Assembly (NCBI GenBank): GCA_039619475.1
Contig: CM077115.1
Location: forward strand, 479,892,400-479,956,399
Direction of reading: 5' to 3'
DNA from: Icerya purchasi
Taxonomy: Eukaryota > Arthropoda > Insecta > Hemiptera > Monophlebidae
Length of the DNA: 64,000 bases
In this document: positions 10,304-57,077 of the stretch, piece after piece
Layout of the letters: each line of letters begins with the position of its first letter
How positions within the stretch are numbered: the first letter of the stretch is position 1
Notes under the pieces: model-generated
Database searches by the model: none
Seen by the model: the letters and a program-made list of their open reading frames with translations, nothing else
Told to the model about the DNA's origin: nothing
Position numbers and translations under genes: made by a program

Positions 10304-10322
10304 GTGTGCGTGCGTGTGCGCG

Positions 10323-10364: not shown

Positions 10365-10366
<2 letters not shown>

Positions 10367-17500: not shown

Positions 17501-17553
17501 TCATTACACTCTTTTTCAACAATTTGTGACGTTTCATACTATTTTTTAATGTT

Positions 17554-17781: not shown

Positions 17782-17887
17782 ATCAACACTCCAAACTTGC
17801 AGTTTCAGAATTATATCAGACCCTGACTAAGAACCCCGTTGTTCCTCTTGCTGCATATATATGTATATAATCATATATTATTAAATT

Positions 17888-17968
17888 TATATCTACATAT
17901 ATATATCTACATATATATATCTACATATATATATCTACATATATACATAAATATGTAGTTATATGTAT
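17888..17968. repeat. Loop of P1: TACATATATATC-type microsatellite
   Basis: About five units of 'atatctacatat' are followed by 'acataaatatgtagttat'. It lies exactly at the symmetry axis. The same 12-bp unit forms long arrays at the centre of P2. Confidence 0.9.
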
Positions 17969-21568: not shown

Positions 21569-21787
21569 TTGATTCAACTGGTACATCTCCATATGCAAGT
21601 GAGGACCCCCATGGAATACCTAAAACATTCTTCTGCGGCGAAGGTCGCTAAGTGGGTGAGGTGCATAGTAGAGACCGAGGGGTTGAAAGAAAGCCTAGAG
21701 AAGGTTATCGCGGTTGAATATAGGCATAGTAAAGAGTTGGAAGAAAAAAGTAAGAAAGATCGCGAAAAATTGAGGAAAATTGTGTGA
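21569..21787 (+). CDS. Hypothetical 72-aa coiled-coil reading frame (P1 right arm copy)
   Basis: This is the exact mirror copy of the frame at 14,069-14,287, identical in sequence, with the same ATG and stop. Everything said there applies. The related decayed frame of the next module lies at about 21,050-21,185. Confidence 0.3.
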   Translation: MIQLVHLHMQVRTPMEYLKHSSAAKVAKWVRCIVETEGLKESLEKVIAVEYRHSKELEEKSKKDREKLRKIV

Positions 21788-24557
21788 AAGGACTAAAAGC
21801 ACTGAAAAAACGGTGAGAAATAGCAGAAATTGACGAAAACAGTGTAAAAGTGCTAAAATGTATGAAAATGGGGTGAAATAGTGGAAAACGGGGTATAATT
21901 AGTTAAAAATGAGAAAAATAGTGTAACAATGTTAAAACATAAGATTGTAATAAGGAAGATAACGTTTACTACATGGCTGTGCAGAGGTGTTGAAGCTGAG
22001 GCGTTATCGGTAAATAGTAGTGCGAGGCCATTACTCTCCACCAGTCTAACAGGATCGGTTAAGGAGGATTTCTTTAGTGTATAGATCAGTTACATAAGCA
22101 TGCGGGTTATGCGTCTAGTAAATGTCTCGGACGTGATCGTTCTGTATGATGCTCTTACCACACGGCAGTATCATATTCATGTTAATGCTAACAAACGGTA
22201 CGTCAAGAAACGAGCGGTGGAAGACGAAGCCCTGAACTACACATTATACCATTGTGTAACGTGTGTGAAAAACCGGTTTCAGCGGGAGAGATTGACCGCT
22301 TTCACCTTGATTCCTAGAAAAGGTGTATAGACGTCATAAATTATCCTGTTGTAAAAGGTCGTAAATGCAGGTACATGATAGAGGCTTCAATAATGTTGCG
22401 AGTGAATGGCGAGACGAGGCGGTTTAGGTTGTGGAGCAGCGATTGTTGTTCTTGAAAACGAGCCTGATGTTAAATGTGTGCGTACAGGTGTATGCGAACG
22501 CAAAAAAAAAATATTCTTCTGCTGAATAATGGTAAATAGCGTGCGACACATAAATGACCTTGAAGATAAAGAACCCTCGCATACAAAGGCTGTCATGTTA
22601 ATGAGATTTATACCTGTAGAAGTTGTCAATTCCTAAAAAGAAAGACTGGGGGCGTGTCTAAAAACCGGTTTCAGTGGGAAAGATTGGTCGCTTTTACCTT
22701 GATTCCTAGAAAAGGTGTATAGACGTCATAAATTATCCTATTGTAAAAAAGGGCGCTTCATCAATAATGTTGCGAACGACCGGTGATGCAGCTTAGACAG
22801 CGGAGCAGTGATTGTTCTTGGAAATGTCGCCTGACCAATGACCCTAATGTTAAATGTGTGCGTATAGGTGCGTGCGCGAGATCGTAAAAAATATACTTCT
22901 TTCGAATAACGGTAAATAGTGTGCGACACACGAGGGGCCTTAAAGATAAGCAACCCGTGCAGACAAAGGCTGGTGTAGCGATGAGGCGTATACCTGCAGA
23001 GGTTGACGATTCCTAAAAAGAAAGACTGGTGCGATTGCAGCAACGATGCTGCGAATTCCTTCGTTTAATAATTATACTGAGATGTGTATAATATTAAAAA
23101 TAGGACGCCTATAACAATTATTTAGTGATCGGAGATTTCCTCTATCGAAAGGCTAAAATTATTTTCACAGTGTAAAGTATGTATGATGGAGTGATTGTGT
23201 AGGAAAAATAATACCAGTAAAAATAATTAAAGATCGTTAATTAAAAATTAAATATATGAGGACGCATAGTGTGTGGGATGGATTGATGTGCTACGCTCCC
23301 GCGGCTAATGCAGAAAAAATGTACAGGATCAATAAAGAAACTATCGTTGAACGTGCCAGTGGGATGTGTATGAAGTCTGGGAGGGGATGAAAAATAAATA
23401 AATATTACAATCGGTATGGAAACGTGTGTGCATGGAAACGAATGTCGTGCAAATAAAAAATATGTACGAACGTGAAAAAATTTTAAAAAGGCTTTTGGAA
23501 AAATAATTTGACAATAATATACAATAACTGATGGTAAAATGGGTGTTGGAGACAGCGTCTATGTTTCTTTAGAGGTTTGATGGTGTGGGGGGGGGGAGCT
23601 CTGGAAAATATATTATGAAAGATTTCGCTTGGGGGGACTGGGAACGATAAAGGAATTTTTGGAAACGCTAAAAAATATAAAAAACGATAAACGCTCTGAA
23701 GAAATGATCGGAAGCGTAAAAAAAAAAATATATATACTTAGACTAATTCTAAAACACCGAGGAAAAAATATCATTATCCAGTATGAAAACTGCTAACATC
23801 AGATGTTTGTGAGGGAACATGCGGTGCGCATTCATTGTGGTCGTGACGTAGATGGAATCATTTTTAGAACCTGAGAAAAAAATGTGAACGATCGGAAGAA
23901 ATGATCGGAAGCGAAAAAAAAAATATAGTTAGAATAATTCCATAATACTTGGAGTTGAAAAAAGTTATTATGAACGGTATGGGAACTAACGACGGCAGAT
24001 GTGTGTGCATTCATCGCGTTGAAGACATTGTAGGATTTATTTTTAGAACCAGAGAAAAATAAAAATATTATGAACGGTCGGAAGAAATGATCAGAAACGA
24101 AAAAAATGTACTTCGGCTATTTCTATAATATTTAGGCTCGAAAAATTATTAAGATCGGTATGGAAACTAACTGCAGAAGATGTGTGCGCATTCATCGTGT
24201 TGAAGACATTGTAGGATTTATTTTTAGAACCGGAGGAAAATAAAAATATTATGAACGGTCAGAAGAAATGATCGGGAGTGAAGAAAATATATAATTGGAA
24301 TAATTCCATAATACTTGGAGTTGAATAAAAGTTATTATGAACGGTATGGGAACTAACGATAGCAGATGGATGTGCGGGAATGGACGGTGTGCGTTCATAG
24401 CGGTCACATAAAAAAATAATTACCTCTCAATATGAGATGACGGAGGCGTCGGGAGCGTCGATCGGGGGTTTAATGGTCGTAGTAAAAGTAAATTGAATGC
24501 GATATATTCGATATTAAAACAACGAAATTGATCGGAAAAAAGGGTGGAAGGGGTAAA

Positions 24558-26400: not shown

Positions 26401-27231
26401 AAAGAAAGAAAACCACGTTTACACACATATAAATATTAACACGATTGTATTGATAAACCGCGAAAGTTTAAAATTATATTCATCCAGCCGTTCTTATTAT
26501 AATATACGTTGTTGTATAAATGCCGCAAACATCCATCTTAATATTTTGTCATTATGACTAAACCGCCTTAAATTCGTTAATCTTGGGTACGTTACTGCTA
26601 AAAAAAACCTTTCACCAAATTAAGGCTAGAAAATTCAAAATAACGAAAATGAATGTTCCTTTTCATTAAAATAGATTTCGTAGTCCTATTCGGTTGCATC
26701 TTAATTGCGATCACGCGGATTTCGGTTACTGATGAAATCCGTCTAGATTATCGAATTCAACAAAGGCTAAGTGCTTGACTAAAAGTCCCAGTTACGGCCG
26801 CTGCTCTTTTTCTATAGCTGCAATGATAAGATGGAACATTTTAATCGAATTATTCTGGCCCTTCGAACAATGATTCTATGTACAAAGTGAATAGGTTTTT
26901 TATCAGAAATTAATTTGCCTTAGTTCTGCAACTTACGCTATTATTATAAAGAAGAAATAATATTTGTTTATCCGTTGGTTTATGACAATGGTAAAAGCAA
27001 TTGTAATCATTCCTTCGCCGTTTCGAAGGACATAAAACTTCCGTTCGTGTACGAGTATAAAGAGTAAATCTTATCCGATTATAATGCTAAAACCGAAAAC
27101 AGAATTAAACGTAAAAAAAAAGATAAAACAGATGAAAATAGATGTAATATTTTAATAAAATAAGAAAATACATTCAAGTTATAACAATTTACAATTACTC
27201 CCCTTTTGCTTCTTGGTTTGTAGTAGTGGTA
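26401..27231. other. AT-rich spacer between the palindromes
   Basis: No gene, repeat family or RNA was recognised. The P2 left arm begins at 27,232 with agtagtcattaaacccgggg; the flank immediately before it, 'tttgtagtagtggta', shares a short gtagt string with the arm end. Confidence 0.5.
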
Positions 27232-27239
27232 AGTAGTCA

Positions 27240-27560
27240 TTAAACCCGGGGACTGGCCGTTCCGCTAATCCGAACCCCAATTTCTGTCCCGGAGGCGAAA
27301 ATTCACCCTAGACCGGTAATCCGAACACAAAATTCACCCCAATTCATGTCCAGGTGGTCAAAATTCACCCAAGTTTCCCCCGATTCCTCCAAGTTTCCCC
27401 CTGACGGTTCCCGTGCATATCCGATAAACCGAACATCCAAACAGTGTCCAGAGGTCAATAAACTGTCCAAAGTGTTATTCGGGGGCGAAAGTAACCCCAA
27501 TTAGTGTCCAGGTGCTGAAAGTTCCCCCAAGTTCCCCAAATTTCTCAGAAATTCCTCCGT
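27240..27560. repeat. Outer end of the P2 left arm, irregular 31-bp-type minisatellite
   Basis: It contains 'aattcaccccaattcatgtc', 'aaaattcacccaagtttccc', 'ccccaattagtgtccaggtg' and similar strings, the reverse complement of the unit at 25,430-25,700. The mirror copy is at about 44,973-45,293. Confidence 0.8.
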
Positions 27561-27799
27561 ACGTGTCCCGCTCGTTTCTGATAAACCGAACCGATTATTA
27601 ATTAACATAAGTATATTAATTAATATCCGAAAGTAACCCAAGTCTCCGCTGGCCCCGCCCGTCCTGCTCCGTTACCGCAATTTTTTTCAAAATTCAGGAC
27701 CTAAGTAAGAAAATTCCAAAATTTAACCCCAATATATTATTTAAAGCGTAAATCTAACCCAACACCTCCGTTACACCTCTCACACATATATTTCGTTCC

Positions 27800-28570
27800 C
27801 GCGCACGCTCCGGTCGCCGTCGCGAAAGCGCACGCGCCGATCCCACGCATATTCCGATGTTCACTGCTTTACCACAATTTTTTTTCAAAATTCAGGACCT
27901 AAGTAAGAAAATTCCAAAATTTAACCCCAATATATTATTTAAAGCTAAAATTTAACCTATAACTCCAGTTCACACCTCTCACACGTATATTTCATTCCCA
28001 CGCTCGCTCCATCCACCGTCGCGAAAGCGCACGCGCAGATCCCACACATATATCTAACACAACGTTATTCTGTGCGAAAGCGCATACGCTGATCCCGATA
28101 CCTCGATTATTTTTTATAAAATTAACTTAAGTATAATTTTTTTATTTTCCCGATTCCCCGATCTTACTGCCATATGTCAAGACGCACGTCCCGATCCCGC
28201 GCATATATCCAATATAACGTTCTCCGCCGCAAAAGCGCACACGCCGATCCCATGCATATTCCGATGTCCACAGCGATATCCCGCGCACACACGCGCTCCG
28301 TTCCCGATACCGCGATTATTTCTTTAATATTTCAAAGCCTAAGTATACATAATATAAAATTAGCCGAAGGATAATTTTTTATTTTCCTGATTCCCCGATC
28401 TTACTGCCATATTCCAAGACGCACGTCCCGATCCCACACATATATCTAACACAGCGTTATTCTCTGCGAAAACGCACGCGCTGATCTCCCGCATATATCT
28501 ATCATAACGCTATCCGCCGCGAAAGCGCACGCACCGTTCCCCCGCACGCGCCGACCGTTTACACTATCGC
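27800..28570. repeat. GC-rich iterated motif cluster, P2 left arm (mirror about 43,963-44,733)
   Basis: GCGAAAGCGCACGCGCCGAT or close variants occur near 27,822, 28,021, 28,073, 28,229, 28,465 and 28,519. Each is usually followed by 'cccacgcatat' and 'atctaacataacgtt'-like strings. The cluster is much richer in GC and CpG than its surroundings. Two or three related copies lie in the P1 right flank (24,720-25,020). The reading frame at 28,174-28,374 lies inside and is not considered a gene. Confidence 0.85.
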
Positions 28571-28849
28571 GATTATTTTTTTAATAATTATTTTTTTCAC
28601 ATAATAACCCAATCCCTGCTCTGTTGTCTAAACCTAACCGTTTATCCAAAACATTTACAAATTAACAAATCAATTATTTCTATAGTCTAAAATAGCCTTA
28701 GTCTCCTTTACCCCTTCCACCCTCTTTTCCGATCGATTTCGTTGTTTTAATATCGAATATATCGCATTCTATTTACTTTTACTACGACCATTAAACCCTC
28801 GATCGACGCACCCGACGCCTCCGTCATTTCATATTGAGAGGTAAGTATT

Positions 28850-29900
28850 TTTTTATGTGACCGCTATGAATGCACACCGTCCCTTCTCGCACACCTATCT
28901 GCTGTTGTTAATTCTCATATCGTTCATAATAACTTTTATTCAACTCCAAGTATTATGGAATTATTCCAATTATATATTTTCTTCACTTCCGATCATTTCT
29001 TCTGACCGTTCATAATATTTTTATTTTCCTCCGGTTCTAAAAATAAATCCTACAATGTCTTCAACGCGATGAATGCGCACACATCTTCTGCAGTTAGTTT
29101 CCATATCGATCTTAATAATTTTTCGAGCCTAAATATTAAAGAAATAGCCGAAGTACATTTTTTTCGTTTCCGATCGTTCTTCCGACCGTTCATAATATTT
29201 TTATTTTCCTCCGGTTCTAAAAATAAATCCTACAATATCTTCACCGCTATGAATGCACACCGCCCATTCCCACACACTCATCTGCTGTCGTTAGTTCCCA
29301 CATCGTTCATAATAATTTTTTCGAGTCTAACTATTATGGAATTATCCTAATTATATTTTTTTGCTTCCGATCTTTCCTTCCGACGGTGTATTATTTTTAT
29401 TTTTCTCCGATTCTAAAAATAAATCCTATAATGTCTTCACTGATATGAAGGCTTACACATCCTCTTCAGTTAGTCTACATACCGTTCATAATAACTTTAA
29501 GTATTATGGAATTATTCCAATTATATTTTTCACGTTTCCGATCATTTCTCCCGACAGTACATTATTTTTATTTTTCTCATAATCTAAAAATAAATCCTTC
29601 GATACCTTTACTGTATGAATGCATACACATCCTCTGCAATTAGTTTCCATATCGTTCATAATAGTTTTTTTTCAACTCAAAGTATTATGGAATTAACCTA
29701 AGTATATTTACTTCACTTACGTTAAATTCTTCCGTCCGTTAATAATTTTATATTTTTTTCTCAGATTCTAAAAATAAATTCGTCGATGTCTTCACTGCTA
29801 TGAATGCGCACACATCTTCTGCCGTTAATTCTCATATCGATCATAATAATTTTTTCATGTCTATGTATTATGGAATTACTCTAAAATATTTTTTTTCTCA
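28850..29900. repeat. Tandem modules of about 180-200 bp, P2 left arm (mirror about 42,633-43,683)
   Basis: Units start at about 28,866, 29,069, 29,250, 29,445, 29,616 and 29,800 with 'gaatgcncac'-like strings, the same unit as at 11,460-12,040 in P1. Reading frames here (29,069-29,350, 29,361-29,582) are repeat-derived. Confidence 0.85.
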
Positions 29901-32900
29901 CTCCAAAGATTTTTTCCAAAAGTAAGTATTTGTAAATTTATGTCGAGTAGAGTTTTATTTAACACGATTTCAACCCCCCTCCCTCTCCTTTCCGCCCTAC
30001 ACAAATTACAAATCTTTCATATTATTTTTCACGAGGACATCCACCCGAATGTGAATCCGCGCCACTCATTCCTGCACACACATATGCTAGAGATGGTTTC
30101 CCAATCATTCATATTAATTTTTTTTCCAAGTCTATTAGTTTAAGAATATTTTATTTATTTCAAACTCCAAATATTTTTCAAGATCTTTTCATATTATATT
30201 TTATTTTCTGTTTAAGACCCCATCAAACCCTCGACTGTCGCAAAAGCATCCCGACACTTCTCACACACGTTCTCCATTATACATTATCAAAATGAATCGA
30301 AATTTATAATCAACGAAGACAATTTACTGATGGTATATACTTTTTATATTTTTTCCCCGTACTCCTCGACCGCCAGATCCGTCACAAAAGCGTACTAGTC
30401 GTTCCCGCACATATATACATTGTCACGACTACACAACACTATATCTGTGCATGTTATACATTCCTATTATGTATTTTCAAAATCGAACCGACTCTCAATA
30501 TTTTTCACTTTACACGGATCTAAAAATTTCTTCTTCTCTCCTTTTACTGCCCTGGACTAAATTAACAACCATACATAATGTTATTTTTATTTATTTATTC
30601 TCAAATACTTATACACGCATACACATCCGTTAGCACTATTTACCAAATCATTCATATTAATGTATTACAGATTTTTAAGCTTCCAATCATTTCACCGTTC
30701 ATAAGTTTTTTATTTTTATGCAAATCAGTCGTCGTGAATCTCAAACATCCGTTCTGCACACATGTTTCTACGCATTCGTCACTGTATCCGTCCGTTATTC
30801 CACTTTCATTTATTTTATTCATTTGTTATTTTTTCTATCAAAAGCCTGAATCTAACCTTGAACCTCTTTACCGTTCATCATTCTTTGTATGTAATACTTT
30901 TCTGAGCTTAGTTACCGTAGAATTTAATTAATCTATATATTTTATTTTTCAATCGACAAAATTTTTTAAAATCTTTCATAATCATATTTTTATACAAATA
31001 CATGTATGGTTTTAATATTTTTTTTAAATTTCGTAAATTATTTTTCCGCGATATACACGAGTTCGTCTATGAGGTGTTGGCGGACAATTGTATAGAGCGA
31101 CAGATAGAAAAAACCTGTTAGTTTACGAACCACAGCATGTTCGAAGAAAAAAAAAAACACGGTAGCACGACCAGATCAGGGTTGCAATGTGCGAGTGAGA
31201 GAGTGTATGTGAGTGAAATAGAAGGTTATATTCTCGAGGGCAACAGCCTGATTGTAAAAATACGTTAAAGATACCTGCATCTATCCCTGAACAGTCATCA
31301 TATCGAACACAAAAAGGTCGCCTAAAAGAATATTGTTTTCTTTTTCAGGTAACGAACAGTAACATTTTTTTCTCTGTGTTATAAAATTAGCCCGAGTATA
31401 TTTTTTATTCTTTCATTACGCTAAAATTTTTTCAAATCTTTTTTGTAATATGCTGTGCAGACAAATGTACGCCGCAGACACTTCTCGCTTCATTACTACT
31501 GATATATCTGTACGTTCATTGACACTATTCTTATCGTAATATAGTTTTTTCAGGAAATCGTAGAAAATGGTTCTTCGCTACATTCATACTATGTAATCTA
31601 TTTCCAAAATTCAAATCGTGCATAATTACTTTAAAATCAACTTAAATATATTTCATCATTTCCAAAATTAGCAATCTCCTTACAGATCATTATCTCATTT
31701 TCCGATTGTCAATAATATTTTTTTTTTTAATCTATTGTACATATATTATTTTTTTATCGTTTAAATTTTTCTTCAATTCGCAAAGGGCCTAACCTATAGA
31801 AAACATATTCTTGTAAACATTCATGACGAATTCACTCCTTCTACTTACATTATGAGTTAATTTTTCTGTAATTATTTTTAACATCTTGAAATTATAGTAG
31901 TTTTTTTTTAATTTTTTTATTTTCCATACATGACAAAAATATTGAAATCACTACATCTATAAATGCATTCACCGTAAGACTCCACTAAACTATCATGAAT
32001 TTTTAAAATTAGCCCAAACATACTATTTTTCACTACAAATTACATTCGCCTATAATTTTTTCTATATAATCACTAACCTACGAAAACACTTCGTTCGTTT
32101 TACTCATGTCGAAGCAATCACTCCTTTTCCCTCTTGCTATCTATGTTCAAAGTCTAATAATGTAATACGAAATTATTCTAAATAAATGTTCATGCTAGCA
32201 AAATTATTACATCACCTCTTTTTCTACACAATTGTATGCATGTTTCCGAAAAATCTCACTATATATTTTCAAAATTAACTCCAGCCCCATGTATTATTTT
32301 TACATTTCATTCATTTATATTTGTTTAATCATATCTGCTGCAAGACCGTATAAAAGAATACAAGCAGTTCCCGCACACATAATTATTGTTCAGAGGTGTT
32401 GTTGGCGTACTTTATCATATACTTTTGTAAGCTCATACAGAACGGCTTCATTACCTTTTATCATTCATTTAGATGCGGAGTCACACAACTTTTAGCGGAG
32501 CAATCAATTCTTTGCAAAACTAATGATTGAAAGCATCCTCCCCACCCTCCAAAAAAAGACGTTGAATAGCGAGGATTTTTTTTTTACACACCCAAAATAA
32601 ATGAGATAATTATTTCTCTATATTTATCACATTACCAAGATTGTATATATCACTCGATCACCTCTTTTACTCATTCGTCGATTTCAAATGTGAAGGAAAT
32701 TTTCGTACCATGCTTTATTCATACATTTTATTTCTGAATAGAATGTTATATGGCTGGGATGGCAGTAAAGATTTCAATTTTATATATGAAGAAAGGATGA
32801 AGCAATCCAGAGACTGTTGTAAATGTATAAGTCTTATTATTTGAAATATAAAATTTGAAGGAAATTTATATATCTTGCATCGTTTTAAGATGTTTTATTT

Positions 32901-33000
32901 TTACATTTTTTTTAATCTCCCTCTTACTATTATTTTTGAAACGGATGTTGATAACTATGAATAGTATTTGTGATTATAGAGAGAGAGGTAAACGTTTTCC
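29901..33000. other. AT-rich part of the P2 left arm (mirror 39,533-42,632), no gene recognised
   Basis: About 3.1 kb of very AT-rich, pyrimidine-biased sequence. Short frames (for example 30,578-30,931 and 32,232-32,495) are rich in Ile, Phe, Ser and Tyr, lack recognisable domains and look like composition artefacts. Degenerate traces of the outer modules ('cgcacacatatatacatt', 'gttccatatcgttcat'-like) persist to about 30,450. Confidence 0.5.
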
Positions 33001-33920
33001 TTACTTTTGACTAATTATGTACAATTTTCAATCATTTTTTACAATTTTTCGCACATTTTACTACTTTTACATTGTTTTAAGCAATTTTTGCTATTTCGCA
33101 TCATTTTCCAGTCTTTTTTTTGTACTTTTTACACAATTTTCATCGATCTTTCAACAACGTTGTAAGGGTTTTTTTTTTTTTTCTTTCTTACATCTCATTA
33201 CAATATCGTTAGTCATCAATGATAACAGTACATATTTATGCTTTCACATCACCTTTCGCTTCATCTGTGCACATCTACAACTTAACAAGCGCAGAACCAG
33301 TTGAATGTTGTAGGCCCGCAATCACGATCTACATTTGATTATTGGATTTACCAGTCACATCTTTGAACGTTTGATTTAATGAATTGACAGGGACTTTGTA
33401 TTTTGCTCGCCCGCTCGATATCTTCAACAGACTATCATGCTAACGTTTAATAAGAGCAGCCATAAAGCTCCAGACGTTTACTGAATGTTTTCTCAACACA
33501 TTCACAGCCCATACCCCATACACTAAGGAAATCTTTAAACACCTCTATAACATTCCTTTTAAGCTGGAGGGAGCAAGGGACTCCTATAATCGTTTTGACA
33601 ATCAACACTTCGTCGTCCATCGCCCTAGCTTTACTTGTCGTTGCACAGACATGTAGTAAACGTTTTCTTCTTTTACAATTTTTTTATATTTCAACACTAT
33701 TAACAAATTTTCCCACCATACTAACTAATTATAAACAGTTTTCCATTATTTCTTATCATGTTCTTATGTTTTAGAGTCTTTTTATGCTATTTTTTTTCAA
33801 CAATTTATGATATTTCTTTTCATTTTCTTGCGTTTTAATGTCTTTCATACAATTTTACTCAATTTTTCGTCATATTCGTCAGTTTTTTATTTATCTCTTA
33901 CATTATATATCTGAATGTGT
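33001..33920. repeat. Inner modules of the P2 left arm shared with P1 (mirror about 38,613-39,532)
   Basis: 'cttttacattgttttaagca', 'tttacacaattttcatc' and 'gttgtaagggttttt' (33,060-33,190), then 'actaaggaaatctttaaac' and 'acatgtagtaaacgttttc' (33,520-33,670), repeat the module ladder of P1 at 13,761-16,300. Confidence 0.8.
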
Positions 33921-34124
33921 CGAATATCCAACCTTTTAACTATATTTTATAATTTGATACGATCATAGATAATAACAAAAGATTTAATTCAATATTGTTC
34001 ACAATTTATTCAATAATTTTTATGACATTCATTATAATCTATAAAAATAATCATTGCTTCATTGTTTCAATGTTAAATTCTAATATATCATTATCAGCCA
34101 TTAATATTTTACAACATAAAATAT

Positions 34125-35093
34125 CTAATTTAACTGAATATATCCTTCTTCAGCCAACTTTTCTTCAATCATCCGAATTTCAGTATCTAAACCATTATTT
34201 CCCGATTGTTTAGATCTGTGTAGTATCAATAATCGCTCAACCAATTCATTAGGATCGTCAGAATAATTGAAATGAGAGTCTTCAAGATTTACTTTGTGAA
34301 CAGTCCTATATGCACGTTTCTTTTTCGTTTTACCCTGATAAACTTTTACATTCTTTATGGTAGATTGAAATAGAGGACGTATTATTTTTCTGTATTTAGG
34401 AAGTGGAGTACCCTTTAATACACCAGTAACACGTACATGAGCTCCAGTAAATTCCAGTATTTGTTTATATAAAGCTAAATCATTATTTGTATATTTATTC
34501 TCATCAACATTTGCTTCCATCAGTAAATGAATCAGTCCTGGTGTGTAAGGAAATTTAGTTAGTGTTCTTCCTTTTCCTAAATAAATTTCACCACATTTCC
34601 GATTCCATGAAATTGGTGTTGAACCCATCATATACTCATGTGTGTTCGCATTATATTGTATTCCATATACAGGTTCATTTGGTAGAGGTTCATCATAATC
34701 TATTTGAAATGGAGCCGTTTCATATATATTAAGGGCCTTATTATCACGATTTTCATATTCTTCTTCATTTTCAATAGCAGTCTCATAATCACGTTTCCTA
34801 CTGTCATTAGAAAGTTTGTGTCGTTTTACCATTGATATATCATCACTTATTCCATCAGAACCATTTTTCATCCTTTTAGGTATTTGTAATGATTCCCGAA
34901 TATCCAATATCTGTTTTGTAACAGGTTCAAGCATTGCAGCTGAAGTATTTGTAATAGATTTAGTCGCATACTTTAACACATTATATTTTTTCATTATATT
35001 GCTGCGTATCCTTTCCAGTTCGCTTTTAAGAATTGCTTCTTTATTTATTCCGTTATTACCAACATTAACCATCACTTTACTCGTTGATACCAT
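34125..35093 (-). CDS. 322-aa arthropod mobile-element-associated protein (DUF8207-like), P2 left-arm copy
   Basis: The frame is complete from an ATG at 35093, 49 bp behind a TATA box, to a TAG at 34125. Residues 15-75 are helical and charged and may form a coiled coil. Residues 80-120 are acidic and low-complexity, with 'VKRHKL' as a possible nuclear signal. Residues about 135-243 ('GEIYLGKGRTLTKFPYTPGL', 'YTNNDLALYKQILEFTGAH', 'KYRKIIRPLF') and the tail 'DDPNELVERLLIL' plus 'GYIQLN' match, from memory, a family common in aphid and other arthropod genomes and often found with Maverick-like elements (DUF8207). Its biochemical role is unknown to me. An intact frame in both arms suggests recent function or very recent duplication. 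Confidence 0.8.
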   Translation of the reverse strand: MVSTSKVMVNVGNNGINKEAILKSELERIRSNIMKKYNVLKYATKSITNTSAAMLEPVTKQILDIRESLQIPKRMKNGSDGISDDISMVKRHKLSNDSRKRDYETAIENEEEYENRDNKALNIYETAPFQIDYDEPLPNEPVYGIQYNANTHEYMMGSTPISWNRKCGEIYLGKGRTLTKFPYTPGLIHLLMEANVDENKYTNNDLALYKQILEFTGAHVRVTGVLKGTPLPKYRKIIRPLFQSTIKNVKVYQGKTKKKRAYRTVHKVNLEDSHFNYSDDPNELVERLLILHRSKQSGNNGLDTEIRMIEEKLAEEGYIQLN

Positions 35094-35141
35094 TATTACA
35101 GGTAATTAAAAATTCATCAAAACTTACATGTAAATCTTCTC

Positions 35142-35149
35142 TATATATA
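35142..35149 (-). promoter_or_regulatory. TATA box of the left 322-aa gene
   Basis: TATATATA followed by GAGAAG (- strand) lies 49-56 bp upstream of the ATG, a spacing that leaves a leader of roughly 20 bases. It is identical in the other arm. Confidence 0.5.
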
Positions 35150-35457
35150 CATTTCACAATCTATTTTGAACACAGAGAGTTAATGCTAATTCATCAGCAA
35201 TAATTTATAGAATGTTTTTAAAGGCTTAAAGGATGCTTATTATATACATATTGTATTTCAAACTGTTCCCTAAAAACACTATTCATGAAACAAAATCTTT
35301 ATAAATAAAAATAAACAACAAAATTGGAACAGAAATTTTAATGGAATTTAAGAATCAGTATTTATTTTTCAATATACTAATATCTCAAAATAAGTGATAA
35401 CATCTAACCTTTTACTAATGATATTACAAAATCTGGAGCAGTGTAATTCACATGCAG

Positions 35458-35807
35458 GATATATACATATATATCAACATATACACATATATATCTACAT
35501 ATATACACATATATATCTACATATATATATACATATATATCTACATATATACATATATATCTACATATATACATATATATCTATATATATATATATATAC
35601 ATATATATCTACATATATACATATATATCTACATATATACATATATATCTACATATATACACATATATATCTACATATATACATATATATCTACATATAT
35701 ATACACATATATATCTACATATATACATATATATCTACATATATACACATATATATCTACATATATATATACATATATACATATATATCTACATATATAC
35801 ACATATT
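35458..35807. repeat. TACATATATATC microsatellite array, left of the P2 centre
   Basis: About 350 bp of units atatctacatat with TA and CA variants. The first 60 bp or so mirror the right array exactly, then the two arrays lose register. Long Ile/Tyr/His reading frames across it are artefacts. Confidence 0.95.
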
Positions 35808-36284
35808 TCCCCAAAATCCTCAGGCGTCCACTGTAATTTCTATATTATCATCATCACTAACACTAGTAAATTCTTCCTTTTTAACACCATTATCACATGA
35901 TTCATTGTTTAGAGGTTGCAGAATACACTCAAAACCAGAAAAAATGACAAATTTACTTTTATTCAATCAACTGCTCAAGCTGATGTTACATTATGAACAA
36001 CCTATACCAGCTTGTTATAATGAATTTGTATAACTTATATAACGCGAAGTATAATTTAAATAATAAAAAATAATAGATAGTATAAAAAATTTATAATTTT
36101 TTTTAAACAATATCAAAGTGTAGTGTTGTTGACTAATTTTGAGTAGAAAGCCTAAAAAGAAAAACATGTAACTTTAGTGACATTTGAGAAATTTATATCA
36201 TTTTACAAATTATGTTTGTGTAACAAGATTGTTAGATTTAAATTGAATTTTATAACATACCCATCTCATAAAGTATAACACATC

Positions 36285-36285
<1 letters not shown>
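35808..36285. other. Unique central spacer of P2
   Basis: This is the only part of P2 without a mirror copy. Apart from the possible PolB fragment, nothing was recognised. It is AT-rich in its right half. Confidence 0.8.
35820..35960 (-). pseudogene. Possible PolB Exo I-region fragment in the P2 central spacer
   Basis: A - strand frame of 46 codons ends in TGA at 35,820. Its start '[17 protein letters not shown]' resembles the Exo I region of Maverick PolB ('FVIYADFECIL.P'), with the catalytic D-x-E reduced to G-x-E, followed by an acidic stretch. Upstream and downstream frames are closed. The match rests on about 15 residues, so chance is a serious alternative. Confidence 0.25.
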
Positions 36286-36333
<48 letters not shown>

Positions 36334-37077
36334 GATATACATGTATATATATGTAGATATGCATGTGTATATATGTAGATATACATGTGTATATATGTAG
36401 ATATATATGTGTATATATGTAGATATATATGTGTATATATATAGATATATATGTATATATGTAGATATATATGTATATATGTAGATATATATGTATATAT
36501 ATATATATACATATATATGTGTATATATGTAGATATATATGTATATATATGTAGATATATATGTGTATATATGTGGATATATATGTATATATGTAGATAT
36601 ATATGTATATATATGTAGATATATATGTATATATATGTAGATATATATGTGTATATATGTAGATATATATGTATATATGTAGATATATATGTATATATGT
36701 AGATATATATGTATATATATATGTAGATATATATGTATATATGTATATATATATGTAGATATATATGTGTATATATGTAGATATATATGTATATATGTAG
36801 ATATATATGTATATATATATGTAGATATATATGTATATATGTAGATATATATGTATATATGTAGATATATATGTGTATATATGTAGATATATATGTATAT
36901 ATGTAGATATATATGTATATATGTAGATATATATGTATATATGTAGATATATATGTATATATATATATGTAGATATATATGTATATATGTAGATATATAT
37001 GTATATATATATGTAGATATATATGTGTATATATGTAGATATATATGTGTATATGTTGATATATATGTATATATCCT
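36286..37077. repeat. TACATATATATC microsatellite array, right of the P2 centre
   Basis: About 790 bp of units atatatgtagat with variants, starting with a pure (TA) run at 36,286-36,330. It is more than twice as long as the left array, which is expected of an unstable microsatellite or of assembly collapse on one side. Confidence 0.95.
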
Positions 37078-37383
37078 GCATGTGAATTACACTGCTCCAG
37101 ATTTTGTAATATCATTAGTAAAAGGTTAGATGTTATCACTTATTTTGAGATATTAGTATATTGAAAAATAAATACTGATTCTTAAATTCCATTAAAATTT
37201 CTGTTCCAATTTTGTTGTTTATTTTTATTTATAAAGATTTTGTTTCATGAATAGTGTTTTTAGGGAACAGTTTGAAATACAATATGTATATAATAAGCAT
37301 CCTTTAAGCCTTTAAAAACATTCTATAAATTATTGCTGATGAATTAGCATTAACTCTCTGTGTTCAAAATAGATTGTGAAATG

Positions 37384-37391
37384 TATATATA
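37384..37391 (+). promoter_or_regulatory. TATA box of the right 322-aa gene
   Basis: This is the mirror copy of the site at 35,142-35,149; TATATATA lies 49 bp before the ATG at 37,440. Confidence 0.5.
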
Positions 37392-37439
37392 GAGAAGATT
37401 TACATGTAAGTTTTGATGAATTTTTAATTACCTGTAATA

Positions 37440-38408
37440 ATGGTATCAACGAGTAAAGTGATGGTTAATGTTGGTAATAACGGAATAAATAAAGAAGCAA
37501 TTCTTAAAAGCGAACTGGAAAGGATACGCAGCAATATAATGAAAAAATATAATGTGTTAAAGTATGCGACTAAATCTATTACAAATACTTCAGCTGCAAT
37601 GCTTGAACCTGTTACAAAACAGATATTGGATATTCGGGAATCATTACAAATACCTAAAAGGATGAAAAATGGTTCTGATGGAATAAGTGATGATATATCA
37701 ATGGTAAAACGACACAAACTTTCTAATGACAGTAGGAAACGTGATTATGAGACTGCTATTGAAAATGAAGAAGAATATGAAAATCGTGATAATAAGGCCC
37801 TTAATATATATGAAACGGCTCCATTTCAAATAGATTATGATGAACCTCTACCAAATGAACCTGTATATGGAATACAATATAATGCGAACACACATGAGTA
37901 TATGATGGGTTCAACACCAATTTCATGGAATCGGAAATGTGGTGAAATTTATTTAGGAAAAGGAAGAACACTAACTAAATTTCCTTACACACCAGGACTG
38001 ATTCATTTACTGATGGAAGCAAATGTTGATGAGAATAAATATACAAATAATGATTTAGCTTTATATAAACAAATACTGGAATTTACTGGAGCTCATGTAC
38101 GTGTTACTGGTGTATTAAAGGGTACTCCACTTCCTAAATACAGAAAAATAATACGTCCTCTATTTCAATCTACCATAAAGAATGTAAAAGTTTATCAGGG
38201 TAAAACGAAAAAGAAACGTGCATATAGGACTGTTCACAAAGTAAATCTTGAAGACTCTCATTTCAATTATTCTGACGATCCTAATGAATTGGTTGAGCGA
38301 TTATTGATACTACACAGATCTAAACAATCGGGAAATAATGGTTTAGATACTGAAATTCGGATGATTGAAGAAAAGTTGGCTGAAGAAGGATATATTCAGT
38401 TAAATTAG
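37440..38408 (+). CDS. 322-aa arthropod mobile-element-associated protein (DUF8207-like), P2 right-arm copy
   Basis: The translation is identical to the copy at 34,125-35,093, on the opposite strand. The two genes diverge from the palindrome centre, with start codons about 2.35 kb apart across the microsatellites and spacer. Start, stop and TATA box are the same. The C-terminal half (about residues 135-322) is the recognisable family domain and the N-terminal third is variable and charged. Identity of both copies implies recent duplication or gene conversion between arms. No polymerase, integrase or capsid gene accompanies it inside P2, so by itself P2 would be a non-autonomous element. Confidence 0.8.
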   Translation: MVSTSKVMVNVGNNGINKEAILKSELERIRSNIMKKYNVLKYATKSITNTSAAMLEPVTKQILDIRESLQIPKRMKNGSDGISDDISMVKRHKLSNDSRKRDYETAIENEEEYENRDNKALNIYETAPFQIDYDEPLPNEPVYGIQYNANTHEYMMGSTPISWNRKCGEIYLGKGRTLTKFPYTPGLIHLLMEANVDENKYTNNDLALYKQILEFTGAHVRVTGVLKGTPLPKYRKIIRPLFQSTIKNVKVYQGKTKKKRAYRTVHKVNLEDSHFNYSDDPNELVERLLILHRSKQSGNNGLDTEIRMIEEKLAEEGYIQLN

Positions 38409-41400
38409 ATATTTTATGTTGTAAAATATTAATGGCTGATAATGATATATTAGAATTTAACATTGAAACAATGAAGCAATGATTATTTTTATAGATTATA
38501 ATGAATGTCATAAAAATTATTGAATAAATTGTGAACAATATTGAATTAAATCTTTTGTTATTATCTATGATCGTATCAAATTATAAAATATAGTTAAAAG
38601 GTTGGATATTCGACACATTCAGATATATAATGTAAGAGATAAATAAAAAACTGACGAATATGACGAAAAATTGAGTAAAATTGTATGAAAGACATTAAAA
38701 CGCAAGAAAATGAAAAGAAATATCATAAATTGTTGAAAAAAAATAGCATAAAAAGACTCTAAAACATAAGAACATGATAAGAAATAATGGAAAACTGTTT
38801 ATAATTAGTTAGTATGGTGGGAAAATTTGTTAATAGTGTTGAAATATAAAAAAATTGTAAAAGAAGAAAACGTTTACTACATGTCTGTGCAACGACAAGT
38901 AAAGCTAGGGCGATGGACGACGAAGTGTTGATTGTCAAAACGATTATAGGAGTCCCTTGCTCCCTCCAGCTTAAAAGGAATGTTATAGAGGTGTTTAAAG
39001 ATTTCCTTAGTGTATGGGGTATGGGCTGTGAATGTGTTGAGAAAACATTCAGTAAACGTCTGGAGCTTTATGGCTGCTCTTATTAAACGTTAGCATGATA
39101 GTCTGTTGAAGATATCGAGCGGGCGAGCAAAATACAAAGTCCCTGTCAATTCATTAAATCAAACGTTCAAAGATGTGACTGGTAAATCCAATAATCAAAT
39201 GTAGATCGTGATTGCGGGCCTACAACATTCAACTGGTTCTGCGCTTGTTAAGTTGTAGATGTGCACAGATGAAGCGAAAGGTGATGTGAAAGCATAAATA
39301 TGTACTGTTATCATTGATGACTAACGATATTGTAATGAGATGTAAGAAAGAAAAAAAAAAAAAACCCTTACAACGTTGTTGAAAGATCGATGAAAATTGT
39401 GTAAAAAGTACAAAAAAAAGACTGGAAAATGATGCGAAATAGCAAAAATTGCTTAAAACAATGTAAAAGTAGTAAAATGTGCGAAAAATTGTAAAAAATG
39501 ATTGAAAATTGTACATAATTAGTCAAAAGTAAGGAAAACGTTTACCTCTCTCTCTATAATCACAAATACTATTCATAGTTATCAACATCCGTTTCAAAAA
39601 TAATAGTAAGAGGGAGATTAAAAAAAATGTAAAAATAAAACATCTTAAAACGATGCAAGATATATAAATTTCCTTCAAATTTTATATTTCAAATAATAAG
39701 ACTTATACATTTACAACAGTCTCTGGATTGCTTCATCCTTTCTTCATATATAAAATTGAAATCTTTACTGCCATCCCAGCCATATAACATTCTATTCAGA
39801 AATAAAATGTATGAATAAAGCATGGTACGAAAATTTCCTTCACATTTGAAATCGACGAATGAGTAAAAGAGGTGATCGAGTGATATATACAATCTTGGTA
39901 ATGTGATAAATATAGAGAAATAATTATCTCATTTATTTTGGGTGTGTAAAAAAAAAATCCTCGCTATTCAACGTCTTTTTTTGGAGGGTGGGGAGGATGC
40001 TTTCAATCATTAGTTTTGCAAAGAATTGATTGCTCCGCTAAAAGTTGTGTGACTCCGCATCTAAATGAATGATAAAAGGTAATGAAGCCGTTCTGTATGA
40101 GCTTACAAAAGTATATGATAAAGTACGCCAACAACACCTCTGAACAATAATTATGTGTGCGGGAACTGCTTGTATTCTTTTATACGGTCTTGCAGCAGAT
40201 ATGATTAAACAAATATAAATGAATGAAATGTAAAAATAATACATGGGGCTGGAGTTAATTTTGAAAATATATAGTGAGATTTTTCGGAAACATGCATACA
40301 ATTGTGTAGAAAAAGGGGTGATGTAATAATTTTGCTAGCATGAACATTTATTTAGAATAATTTCGTATTACATTATTAGACTTTGAACATAGATAGCAAG
40401 AGGGAAAAGGAGTGATTGCTTCGACATGAGTAAAACGAACGAAGTGTTTTCGTAGGTTAGTGATTATATAGAAAAAATTATAGGCGAATGTAATTTGTAG
40501 TGAAAAATAGTATGTTTGGGCTAATTTTAAAAATTCATGATAGTTTAGTGGAGTCTTACGGTGAATGCATTTATAGATGTAGTGATTTCAATATTTTTGT
40601 CATGTATGGAAAATAAAAAAATTAAAAAAAAACTACTATAATTTCAAGATGTTAAAAATAATTACAGAAAAATTAACTCATAATGTAAGTAGAAGGAGTG
40701 AATTCGTCATGAATGTTTACAAGAATATGTTTTCTATAGGTTAGGCCCTTTGCGAATTGAAGAAAAATTTAAACGATAAAAAAATAATATATGTACAATA
40801 GATTAAAAAAAAAAATATTATTGACAATCGGAAAATGAGATAATGATCTGTAAGGAGATTGCTAATTTTGGAAATGATGAAATATATTTAAGTTGATTTT
40901 AAAGTAATTATGCACGATTTGAATTTTGGAAATAGATTACATAGTATGAATGTAGCGAAGAACCATTTTCTACGATTTCCTGAAAAAACTATATTACGAT
41001 AAGAATAGTGTCAATGAACGTACAGATATATCAGTAGTAATGAAGCGAGAAGTGTCTGCGGCGTACATTTGTCTGCACAGCATATTACAAAAAAGATTTG
41101 AAAAAATTTTAGCGTAATGAAAGAATAAAAAATATACTCGGGCTAATTTTATAACACAGAGAAAAAAATGTTACTGTTCGTTACCTGAAAAAGAAAACAA
41201 TATTCTTTTAGGCGACCTTTTTGTGTTCGATATGATGACTGTTCAGGGATAGATGCAGGTATCTTTAACGTATTTTTACAATCAGGCTGTTGCCCTCGAG
41301 AATATAACCTTCTATTTCACTCACATACACTCTCTCACTCGCACATTGCAACCCTGATCTGGTCGTGCTACCGTGTTTTTTTTTTTCTTCGAACATGCTG

Positions 41401-44400
41401 TGGTTCGTAAACTAACAGGTTTTTTCTATCTGTCGCTCTATACAATTGTCCGCCAACACCTCATAGACGAACTCGTGTATATCGCGGAAAAATAATTTAC
41501 GAAATTTAAAAAAAATATTAAAACCATACATGTATTTGTATAAAAATATGATTATGAAAGATTTTAAAAAATTTTGTCGATTGAAAAATAAAATATATAG
41601 ATTAATTAAATTCTACGGTAACTAAGCTCAGAAAAGTATTACATACAAAGAATGATGAACGGTAAAGAGGTTCAAGGTTAGATTCAGGCTTTTGATAGAA
41701 AAAATAACAAATGAATAAAATAAATGAAAGTGGAATAACGGACGGATACAGTGACGAATGCGTAGAAACATGTGTGCAGAACGGATGTTTGAGATTCACG
41801 ACGACTGATTTGCATAAAAATAAAAAACTTATGAACGGTGAAATGATTGGAAGCTTAAAAATCTGTAATACATTAATATGAATGATTTGGTAAATAGTGC
41901 TAACGGATGTGTATGCGTGTATAAGTATTTGAGAATAAATAAATAAAAATAACATTATGTATGGTTGTTAATTTAGTCCAGGGCAGTAAAAGGAGAGAAG
42001 AAGAAATTTTTAGATCCGTGTAAAGTGAAAAATATTGAGAGTCGGTTCGATTTTGAAAATACATAATAGGAATGTATAACATGCACAGATATAGTGTTGT
42101 GTAGTCGTGACAATGTATATATGTGCGGGAACGACTAGTACGCTTTTGTGACGGATCTGGCGGTCGAGGAGTACGGGGAAAAAATATAAAAAGTATATAC
42201 CATCAGTAAATTGTCTTCGTTGATTATAAATTTCGATTCATTTTGATAATGTATAATGGAGAACGTGTGTGAGAAGTGTCGGGATGCTTTTGCGACAGTC
42301 GAGGGTTTGATGGGGTCTTAAACAGAAAATAAAATATAATATGAAAAGATCTTGAAAAATATTTGGAGTTTGAAATAAATAAAATATTCTTAAACTAATA
42401 GACTTGGAAAAAAAATTAATATGAATGATTGGGAAACCATCTCTAGCATATGTGTGTGCAGGAATGAGTGGCGCGGATTCACATTCGGGTGGATGTCCTC
42501 GTGAAAAATAATATGAAAGATTTGTAATTTGTGTAGGGCGGAAAGGAGAGGGAGGGGGGTTGAAATCGTGTTAAATAAAACTCTACTCGACATAAATTTA
42601 CAAATACTTACTTTTGGAAAAAATCTTTGGAGTGAGAAAAAAAATATTTTAGAGTAATTCCATAATACATAGACATGAAAAAATTATTATGATCGATATG
42701 AGAATTAACGGCAGAAGATGTGTGCGCATTCATAGCAGTGAAGACATCGACGAATTTATTTTTAGAATCTGAGAAAAAAATATAAAATTATTAACGGACG
42801 GAAGAATTTAACGTAAGTGAAGTAAATATACTTAGGTTAATTCCATAATACTTTGAGTTGAAAAAAAACTATTATGAACGATATGGAAACTAATTGCAGA
42901 GGATGTGTATGCATTCATACAGTAAAGGTATCGAAGGATTTATTTTTAGATTATGAGAAAAATAAAAATAATGTACTGTCGGGAGAAATGATCGGAAACG
43001 TGAAAAATATAATTGGAATAATTCCATAATACTTAAAGTTATTATGAACGGTATGTAGACTAACTGAAGAGGATGTGTAAGCCTTCATATCAGTGAAGAC
43101 ATTATAGGATTTATTTTTAGAATCGGAGAAAAATAAAAATAATACACCGTCGGAAGGAAAGATCGGAAGCAAAAAAATATAATTAGGATAATTCCATAAT
43201 AGTTAGACTCGAAAAAATTATTATGAACGATGTGGGAACTAACGACAGCAGATGAGTGTGTGGGAATGGGCGGTGTGCATTCATAGCGGTGAAGATATTG
43301 TAGGATTTATTTTTAGAACCGGAGGAAAATAAAAATATTATGAACGGTCGGAAGAACGATCGGAAACGAAAAAAATGTACTTCGGCTATTTCTTTAATAT
43401 TTAGGCTCGAAAAATTATTAAGATCGATATGGAAACTAACTGCAGAAGATGTGTGCGCATTCATCGCGTTGAAGACATTGTAGGATTTATTTTTAGAACC
43501 GGAGGAAAATAAAAATATTATGAACCGTCAGAAGAAATGATCGGAAGTGAAGAAAATATATAATTGGAATAATTCCATAATACTTGGAGTTGAATAAAAG
43601 TTATTATGAACGATATGAGAATTAACGACAGCAGATAGGTGTGCGAGAAGGGACGGTGTGCATTCATAGCGGTCACATAAAAAAATACTTACCTCTCAAT
43701 ATGAAATGACGGAGGCGTCGGGTGCGTCGATCGAGGGTTTAATGGTCGTAGTAAAAGTAAATAGAATGCGATATATTCGATATTAAAACAACGAAATCGA
43801 TCGGAAAAGAGGGTGGAAGGGGTAAAGGAGACTAAGGCTATTTTAGACTATAGAAATAATTGATTTGTTAATTTGTAAATGTTTTGGATAAACGGTTAGG
43901 TTTAGACAACAGAGCAGGGATTGGGTTATTATGTGAAAAAAATAATTATTAAAAAAATAATCGCGATAGTGTAAACGGTCGGCGCGTGCGGGGGAACGGT
44001 GCGTGCGCTTTCGCGGCGGATAGCGTTATGATAGATATATGCGGGAGATCAGCGCGTGCGTTTTCGCAGAGAATAACGCTGTGTTAGATATATGTGTGGG
44101 ATCGGGACGTGCGTCTTGGAATATGGCAGTAAGATCGGGGAATCAGGAAAATAAAAAATTATCCTTCGGCTAATTTTATATTATGTATACTTAGGCTTTG
44201 AAATATTAAAGAAATAATCGCGGTATCGGGAACGGAGCGCGTGTGTGCGCGGGATATCGCTGTGGACATCGGAATATGCATGGGATCGGCGTGTGCGCTT
44301 TTGCGGCGGAGAACGTTATATTGGATATATGCGCGGGATCGGGACGTGCGTCTTGACATATGGCAGTAAGATCGGGGAATCGGGAAAATAAAAAAATTAT

Positions 44401-45301
44401 ACTTAAGTTAATTTTATAAAAAATAATCGAGGTATCGGGATCAGCGTATGCGCTTTCGCACAGAATAACGTTGTGTTAGATATATGTGTGGGATCTGCGC
44501 GTGCGCTTTCGCGACGGTGGATGGAGCGAGCGTGGGAATGAAATATACGTGTGAGAGGTGTGAACTGGAGTTATAGGTTAAATTTTAGCTTTAAATAATA
44601 TATTGGGGTTAAATTTTGGAATTTTCTTACTTAGGTCCTGAATTTTGAAAAAAAATTGTGGTAAAGCAGTGAACATCGGAATATGTGTGGGATCGGCGCG
44701 TGCGCTTTCGCGACGGCGACCGGAGCGTGCGCGGGAACGAAATATATGTGTGAGAGGTGTAACGGAGGTGTTGGGTTAGATTTACGCTTTAAATAATATA
44801 TTGGGGTTAAATTTTGGAATTTTCTTACTTAGGTCCTGAATTTTGAAAAAAATTGCGGTAACGGAGCAGGACGGGCGGGGCCAGCGGAGACTTGGGTTAC
44901 TTTCGGATATTAATTAATATACTTATGTTAATTAATAATCGGTTCGGTTTATCAGAAACGAGCGGGACACGTACGGAGGAATTTCTGAGAAATTTGGGGA
45001 ACTTGGGGGAACTTTCAGCACCTGGACACTAATTGGGGTTACTTTCGCCCCCGAATAACACTTTGGACAGTTTATTGACCTCTGGACACTGTTTGGATGT
45101 TCGGTTTATCGGATATGCACGGGAACCGTCAGGGGGAAACTTGGAGGAATCGGGGGAAACTTGGGTGAATTTTGACCACCTGGACATGAATTGGGGTGAA
45201 TTTTGTGTTCGGATTACCGGTCTAGGGTGAATTTTCGCCTCCGGGACAGAAATTGGGGTTCGGATTAGCGGAACGGCCAGTCCCCGGGTTTAATGACTAC
45301 T

Positions 45302-45768
45302 ACTGTGGTATTATGCACGAGCAACAGTTTGCCATTCGAGCCGAGTTTTATAATCCAGCGATTTGTGTCTAATTTGATCTTCCGCACTGGCACCCTCGGA
45401 TGTTTACTATTCTGTACTATCTTGATCTTTAGCTATTATGACTTCCACATATGTGTGTCGAAAAATTCTAAGCAACAGCTAAATATTCAGAGCGGATCGT
45501 TACCAGTTGATAAACATTTGTTCGGTGTTCTGCATGTCCACGATATTCATCTCTAGAAGCTCAAATCTCAAAATCATTTTTTCTCTAATATTCCCTAATA
45601 ACTGTTCAGGGTTTCGCTGGATACGCTGCAGTTGAAAAAGTGAGTGTTTTTAGTAGTTTTCCTTTTTTTTTCTTTTTTTTTTATGCGACATTTTTGTTAA
45701 TCTGACTACGAAATTTCGAGCAATGTTTATCATTTGTCAATAATGAGCCGAAGTACTTATCAGCTACT
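45302..45768. other. Right flank of P2, no gene recognised
   Basis: The P2 arm ends at 45,301. The reading frame beginning at 45,293 straddles the junction and is therefore unlikely to be an original gene. The sequence beyond is of ordinary composition and was not recognised. Confidence 0.5.
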
Positions 45769-57035: not shown

Positions 57036-57077
57036 GTCAGACCTGCCAGCTGTCACATTTATACCCTACTTATTGCA

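Follow-up and report, generated by a model that had tools for sequence, protein, structure and literature searches.

Polintons, also known as Mavericks, are considered ancient kin of most eukaryotic double-stranded DNA viruses (PMC7805220). The passages available from a survey of vertebrate Mavericks (PMC8097293) give lengths of 12,723-24,620 bp, terminal inverted repeats (TIRs) of 46-1,447 bp, (AGT)2//(ACT)2 as the commonest end motif and target-site duplications of 6 bp; they ascribe a 'jumping-back' role to the end repeats and present protein-primed replication as expected from gene content and end motifs, not as observed. An earlier note on the DNA analyzed here, which had put Polinton TIRs at about 0.1-1.5 kb, agrees with these figures. 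The present analysis concerns P2, an 18,073-bp palindrome of the scale insect Icerya purchasi located in a stretch of 64,000 nucleotides (C1:479892400-479956399, referred to as the window; coordinates without C1 or C2 are positions in it). The assembly, obtained from PacBio high-fidelity (HiFi) reads with hifiasm 0.14, comprises 1,103.38 Mb in two chromosomes with a scaffold N50 of 601.66 Mb (PMC11183206), and 1,103,370,081 bases, including C1 (601.66 Mb) and C2 (497.30 Mb), were searched. The reading favored here, to which a probability of about 0.8 is given, is that P2 is one insertion of a palindromic element family that has Polinton ends and occurs in many copies, and that its arms likely stem from a Polinton strand that folded back and served as its own template.

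The palindrome is real and constitutes a whole inserted transposable element. P2 extends from element end to element end at 27232-45304 and is flanked directly on both sides by perfect copies of a 6-bp target-site duplication, GTGGTA (27226-27231 and 45305-45310), a length characteristic of Polintons. The left arm (27232-35806, plus strand) begins AGTAGTCATTAAACCC and the right arm (36727-45304, minus strand) ends with GACTACTACT; read from its left side the element gives AGTAGTCATT, and from its right side AGTAGTAGTCATT, which is the Polinton-type (AGT)2//(ACT)2 terminal motif. The earlier note had described a near-perfect mirror at 27232-45301 with a single mismatch. The mirror holds, with 99.65% identity over 8,588 aligned bases between 27232-35806 and 36727-45301 (microsatellite part counted in), but base-by-base alignment yields four substitutions in the ~8.3 kb outside the central microsatellite (27847/44686, 28906/43627, 29007/43526 and 32217/40316), and the right arm continues to 45304 through an additional AGT unit that the left end lacks. 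The presence of two AGT units at one end and three at the other could reflect slippage in protein-primed initiation. A near-perfect inverted repeat of 8.5 kb is far beyond chance. At the center, where a microsatellite pair around a 480-bp spacer had been noted, two TA/CA-rich microsatellite arrays of unequal length (approximately 35459-35806 and 36285-37074, the right one being longer) enclose about 478 bp of unmirrored sequence (35807-36284), which would form the loop of a hairpin. Tandem repeats of ~180 bp, shared with a second palindrome in the window (P1, described below) and with other palindromes, lie near the outer ends of the arms (28888-29920 on the left, mirrored at approximately 42617-43645).

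Each arm carries, as the earlier note had found, an intact gene for a protein of 322 amino acids (aa), identical in the two arms and directed away from the center (34125-35093, minus strand, and 37440-38408, plus strand). With the microsatellite set aside, no other open reading frame (ORF) of P2 reaches 150 aa, and among frames of that length there is no double jelly-roll capsid gene. A Polinton would be expected to have TIRs of tens to ~1,450 bp around a unique interior, together with its own integrase and protein-primed DNA polymerase (PolB), whereas P2 has arms of ~8.6 kb and a center of ~0.5 kb, and these two genes reside in other elements of the genome. P2 is Polinton-derived and is not an autonomous Polinton.

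When the genome was searched with the first 1,001 bases of P2, 40 of 1,972 first-look candidates were scored, and these resolved by eye into 16 mirror pairs and 8 singles, with every pair measuring 17.0-20.2 kb end to end. The halves of 10 of the 15 pairs other than P2 (L011-L030) were fetched. In all ten pairs the mirror symmetry extends as far as the central region, giving palindromes of 17-20 kb, and all ten carry perfect 6-bp target-site duplications, eight of which were located by script and two read from the letters (GTAATC for L017/L018 and ATTATC for L027/L028). Two further mirrored elements, one with paired PolB genes (C1:475533444-475553252, of which the ends and center were examined) and one with paired integrase genes (C2:18393809-18412770), have the duplications GGCGAG and AGTGTC, respectively. 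Together with P2 these make 13 mirrored elements with both ends located, and a perfect 6-bp duplication is present in 13 of 13, 12 of which are palindromes by the sequence read. Since in every case the mirrored stretch is enclosed in full by the duplication, each of these elements entered its site as a mirrored unit. A local inverted duplication at the site was rejected on the same ground; of the recent inverted duplication kept uniform by gene conversion that the earlier note had offered, only conversion as a means of upkeep is possible. The note's suggestion of a very-long-TIR element is supported by the duplications, the end motif and the many insertions, and the genome search that it had proposed for further copies, element ends and duplications returned many palindromes. 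Twelve palindromic elements, P2 included, have been checked, and their total number in the genome is likely above 100. Some mirror pairs stand in tandem (C2:341.04-341.08 Mb, C2:466.22-466.25 Mb, C1:449.91-449.93 Mb and C1:48.92-48.95 Mb); those at 341 and 466 Mb apparently share part of an end, and such arrangements may be concatemers or segmental duplications.

The arms of a given element are far more alike than are separate elements. Arm-to-arm substitutions, counted apart from indels and from the last, central 1-kb bin of each palindrome, number 4 in P2, 0 in L011, 2 in L013, 2 in L015, 0 in L017, 0 in L019, 5 in L021, 6 in L023, 1 in L025, 3 in L027 and 1 in L029 (each pair named by its first half), for a total of 24 in ~92 kb, compared with a synonymous divergence of ~3% between elements of the commonest cargo type among the fetched pairs (type B, below). 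The omitted central bins hold 74 further substitutions, nearly all in microsatellite or loop. The local alignment of L019/L020 gives 98.6% owing to 233 extra repeat bases in one arm, and global alignment finds one substitution in the first 9.6 kb.

The palindromes differ in the genes that they carry twice. The 322-aa gene of P2 (type A) recurs in one of the ten fetched pairs (L013/L014), whereas eight of the ten (type B) have an ORF of 314-339 aa and an ORF of 252-286 aa. These type B genes are distantly related to Polinton genes (24% identity to an exo-like ORF and 29% to the N-terminal part of PolB), and their ratios of nonsynonymous to synonymous differences per site (pN/pS) are 0.35 and 0.50 (8 and 7 copies). 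Gene copies in the genome show the same symmetry, with counts that are lower bounds as only the best candidates were scored. At least 124 copies of the 322-aa gene were scored of 2,731 candidates, 120 of the 124 being free of stop codons; all but 14 singles fall into 55 divergent pairs, in 46 of which the partners have equal scores, spread over 34 score classes. For the type B gene, at least 120 copies scored of 3,548 candidates form 50 convergent pairs (42 equal-scored) and 20 singles. Where stop codons occur, they are found at equal score in both arms of one element, so that loss of function is mirrored as well. For most gene pairs the palindrome is deduced from this symmetry, the ends having been read in few.

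The remaining fetched pair, L017/L018 (type C), is a mirrored left half of a Polinton with integrase, ATPase and a capsid fragment. Its eight ORFs of at least 120 aa, one of which is listed on one side only in a stretch that ends at the center, include an integrase (rve PF00665, 3.6e-12, with a weak chromo domain match), proteins of 264 and 236 aa, a 315-aa homologue of the 322-aa protein, a Pox_A32-like ATPase, a phospholipase A2-like protein, a double jelly-roll fragment (PF21738) and a protein with 68.6% identity to the product of window ORF 450-1385. This protein and the window ORF product are called exo-like here as a working label, no family having been matched. On the left side of L017/L018 the alignment to the exo-like protein of the window continues from the arm into the loop and takes in residues 10-259; on the mirror side it takes in residues 10-213 only. 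By this alignment the fold lies inside the exo-like gene with the next codons forming the unmirrored loop, and such asymmetry is the expected trace of a strand that turned back within a gene. The right half of a Polinton is mirrored in the PolB palindrome, so that self-complementary halves of both kinds exist among the relatives of P2. At least 122 integrase copies scored of 1,677 candidates include nine mirror pairs, two of them adjacent, with spacings of 12.1-16.0 kb in about six classes, and one mirror pair is found among 38 scored PolB copies. With both halves mirrored and about six spacing classes, several independent folds probably took place. At the integrase pairs at 367.6 and 519.1 Mb the ends were not at the guessed place, which is uninformative either way. 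Two stretches, L083 and L084, are the expected centers of two integrase mirror pairs; they lack symmetry over 700 bp although the genes on either side, and for L083 also the element ends, are mirrored, and may be long loops or later insertions.

Possible parents of such halves are also present. Of 3,436 PolB candidates at least 38 were scored as copies, 30 of them stop-free (one of these partial). A scored integrase lies within 14 kb of 21 of the 38 and is co-linear in all 21, with both genes stop-free in 19. The idea that every PolB copy is mirrored and that no unit-length element exists was therefore rejected, as 36 of the 38 copies lack a mirror partner and 21 lie co-linear with an integrase. 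The element at C2:214121287-214141997 is a unit-length Polinton of 20.7 kb with a 656-bp TIR (two mismatches, one inside the right-hand end motif) and the duplication ATCACC on both sides. A single-integrase element at C1:134550400 has a left end that matches the first 201 bp of P2 at 90% identity; in the other five of the six single-integrase copies tried the guessed position contained no end, which again is uninformative. Polintons of unit length in which both the integrase and the PolB frame are open may be helpers for elements that lack these genes.

The mechanism proposed for the palindromes would begin with replication of a unit-length Polinton by protein priming and strand displacement. 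A strand could snap back near the middle of the genome (for type C, inside the exo-like gene) and prime its own copying, which would yield a self-complementary genome bearing the same terminus on both sides. Insertion of this genome in a chromosome would rely on integrase provided in trans, and some such genomes, those of the P2 type and type B, may then have spread as satellites. Identity of the arms might be renewed through hairpin copying, mismatch repair in the hairpin or chromosomal gene conversion. Under this scheme P2 belongs to a high-copy class of self-complementary, Polinton-derived elements, probably satellites mobilized by Polinton enzymes. A snapback origin of P2 itself is suggested by its relatives, its parent having diverged (the 322-aa gene is 49-54% identical to its Polinton orthologues). 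The earlier note's further suggestion, a hairpin replication product of a virus-like element, is likewise supported by the Polinton ends and by the palindromes of Polinton halves elsewhere in the genome. The terminal blocks of the elements combine sequence of different types, yet the same combination is mirrored on the opposite arm. Within P2, bp 501-1000 are 99.4% like type B L011 and 86% like type A L013, bp 2501-8000 are 97.6-99.8% like L013, and the arms agree at 99.6-100% per 500-bp window up to bp 8000. Exchange at one end thus seems to have reached the other end, which hairpin replication or repair would explain, as would chromosomal gene conversion.

Several observations weigh against the favored reading. 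P2 encodes no integrase and no PolB among its ORFs of at least 150 aa, and neither extrachromosomal DNA nor a transcript nor a transposition event was observed. Arm identity is lower in the PolB palindrome, at 98.2% over 457 bp of its ends and 99.3% over the 4.66-kb center, which makes this element look older. At the expected centers of the integrase pairs at C2:18.39 Mb (the element of L083) and C1:519.15 Mb, 700 bp are without symmetry; these centers may be unmirrored over at least 700 bp or displaced, or the elements may not be palindromes throughout. No scored mirror partner was found for 14 of the 124 322-aa copies and 20 of the 120 type B copies, and for 17 of the 38 PolB copies no integrase in the vicinity was scored. 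Among 22 recent copies of the 322-aa gene pN/pS is 1.36 (53 variable sites, with 21, 16 and 16 at the three codon positions), which points to a recent burst in which constraint is not visible. In P1 the inner 5.6 kb of the arms is free of differences and the outer 1 kb has 9 substitutions and 2 indels, a pattern that fits gene conversion after insertion better than copying in one step. Finally, TTTACC adjoins the end, at 11301, of the partial Polinton beside P1 (element D) and occurs at the mirrored place in the right arm of P1, but neither the predicted TTTACC|AGTAGT nor the rest of the P1 left arm was found in the 7 kb fetched upstream (C1:479879400-479886387).

The P1 pattern also speaks for a chromosomal palindrome, whether a local inverted duplication or an old insertion, that is homogenized by gene conversion as are the palindromes of mammalian Y chromosomes. 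Such homogenization would also account for differences between copies, stop codons among them, that recur in mirror image on the other arm, as seen in 322-aa pairs (C2:124460811/124464075 and C1:449664611/449668267), an integrase pair (C2:253537004/253550226) and type B pairs (C1:85055284/85065563 and C1:352496519/352506705), and a pN/pS above 1 in recent 322-aa copies would fit neutral change mirrored after insertion. Gene conversion cannot, however, produce a mirrored element with duplications outside both ends, as found in 13 of 13, or insertion at many sites, and as a full explanation it is considered unlikely, though it may act in addition to maintain the arms. An assembly artefact, in which fold-back (chimeric or hairpin) reads or two collapsed inverted copies mimic a palindrome, comes to mind because 18 kb can exceed the length of a HiFi read. 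It is very improbable given that two different flanks are joined by perfect 6-bp duplications in all 13 elements, that arms have private differences and that the mirrored layout recurs with different genes at many sites. Even less probable is that the elements are Foldback (FB) transposons of another superfamily with captured genes. Their long inverted repeats with internal tandem repeats (31 bp in P1 and ~180 bp) do recall FB elements, and the 31-bp repeats near the outer ends resemble those of Drosophila FB. FB transposons have 9-bp target-site duplications, however, while those found here are 6 bp next to AGTAGT ends, and in the relatives of P2 there are integrase, PolB, ATPase and capsid sequences of the Polinton type.

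An orthologue of the 322-aa gene adjoins the integrase gene in Polintons of I. purchasi. In the integrase flanks that were fetched, an ORF of at least 150 aa occupies the orthologue position in 12 of 14, and the 9 of these ORFs with a length of 250 aa or more were aligned to the P2 protein. The P2 protein shares 49-54% identity with these orthologues, with pN ~0.28 and pS ~0.5, indicating that the gene has been under constraint since the split. Searches of Pfam, NCBIfam and PHROGs gave no credible match, a protein database search with the single sequence gave none, and the predicted structural model has a confidence (pLDDT) of 41. A profile search found five distant proteins, each annotated PF26634 by the database; this family is named DUF8207, and no paper was found under that name. 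As the gene adjoins integrase and is retained as the sole gene of P2, one may guess that the protein serves replication, packaging or the control of helpers.

P1 (11302-25774) is a gene-poor palindrome of the same family. It is mirrored over 11302-24557 with arms of 6.6 kb, its right end lies at approximately 25774 (...GCTACT, by eye), and it has no ORF above ~110 aa and 31-bp tandem repeats near its outer ends. P1 and P2 have in common the central microsatellite and the outer repeats, in blocks at 68-90% identity; its treatment as an independent curiosity was rejected in favor of a diverged family member. The P1 locus seems rearranged, which qualifies its support for conversion. Element D (1-11301), the right part of a Polinton, ends with ...ACTACT (11296-11301) where the symmetry of P1 starts, and its integrase is located at C1:479886388. 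Neat nesting of element D in P1 with a partner duplication upstream was not confirmed in the 7 kb fetched. Element D carries a Polinton-type family B PolB with an endonuclease VII-like domain (3443-7117, minus strand; 1,224-aa open frame). By its 202 relatives in the database, the best at 41%, this protein is Polinton-like, and of 18 members of the alignment, 15 have an Endonuclease VII match and 3 a DNA_pol_B_2 match; in the window protein the Endonuclease VII-like domain, at residues 467-516, falls below the Pfam cut-off. In IMG/VR the PolB profile matched two viral contigs (L001 and L002), in which no inverted repeats of at least 40 bp were found within the stretches examined, and scans with single proteins gave no match; L001 also encodes an integrase-like ORF by eye. 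A PDB sequence search with the PolB profile returned zinc-finger matches only. Other content of element D comprises a capsid-like tail (by eye), the exo-like ORF at 450-1385 and, beside PolB at 2093-3278 on the minus strand, two short ORFs, one of which matches F-box PF00646 (2.9e-4). A third arm remnant at 55555-57070 has 180-bp repeats, a block like 10344-10981, 31-bp repeats and an end ...CCTACT (by eye). Sequences at approximately 49578-50420 and at 60817-61781, both on the minus strand, are taken by eye to resemble a mariner transposase and a long interspersed nuclear element (LINE), respectively.

Unit-length Polintons, half-genome palindromes with a readable fold and old palindromic lineages together amount to a fossil record of Polinton replication, and the I. 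purchasi genome offers a test of fold-back copying in animal chromosomes. They also point to a route to long near-perfect palindromes besides local duplication with gene conversion. Transcription reading through a palindrome would give a long hairpin RNA and a possible trigger of small-RNA silencing. As a tentative and rather doubtful extension, the Polintons of scale insects might form a community of self-complementary genomes in which unit-length helpers and palindromic satellites are perhaps co-packaged, as in a multipartite virus. Each satellite would carry one end, and its own genes, in duplicate and be padded to roughly the length of one genome (all 16 mirror pairs measure 17.0-20.2 kb), and passage through a hairpin would reset the arms to identity, so that the elements would escape the usual decay of inserted DNA.

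No publication on palindromic Polintons was found by title or the start of the abstract in a search that left most subscription literature outside its reach. Miniature inverted-repeat transposable elements (MITEs) and Foldback elements are non-autonomous DNA elements with inverted repeats. The palindromes of I. purchasi resemble them in these repeats and in a likely dependence on enzymes made elsewhere, and differ in being 17-20 kb long and gene-bearing, with Polinton ends and 6-bp duplications. Mitochondrial linear plasmids of the invertron type have a terminal protein, and panhandle intermediates have been invoked for their long inverted repeats; there, in the passages available, it is flanking host mitochondrial DNA that is repeated inversely (PMC1864894), whereas the palindrome in the present case is made by the element itself. 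Snapback genomes of adeno-associated virus (AAV) are self-complementary left or right halves, symmetric or looped, as are the palindromes described here, and replicate with helper functions (PMC8235507). They are packaged parvovirus molecules that the passages available do not describe as chromosomal insertions (PMC8235507), in contrast to the inserted, high-copy palindromes of I. purchasi, which belong to a different replication system. The closest likeness is to the Polintons/Mavericks themselves, with which P2 shares (AGT)2 ends, a 6-bp duplication and a length inside the 12.7-24.6 kb range, and whose integrase, PolB, ATPase and capsid sequences are present in the same genome. The TIRs of Polintons span 46-1,447 bp in the vertebrate survey (PMC8097293), and 656 bp in the unit-length element found here, whereas in P2 an inverted repeat of ~8.6 kb per arm makes up the whole element except its center and the gene is carried twice.

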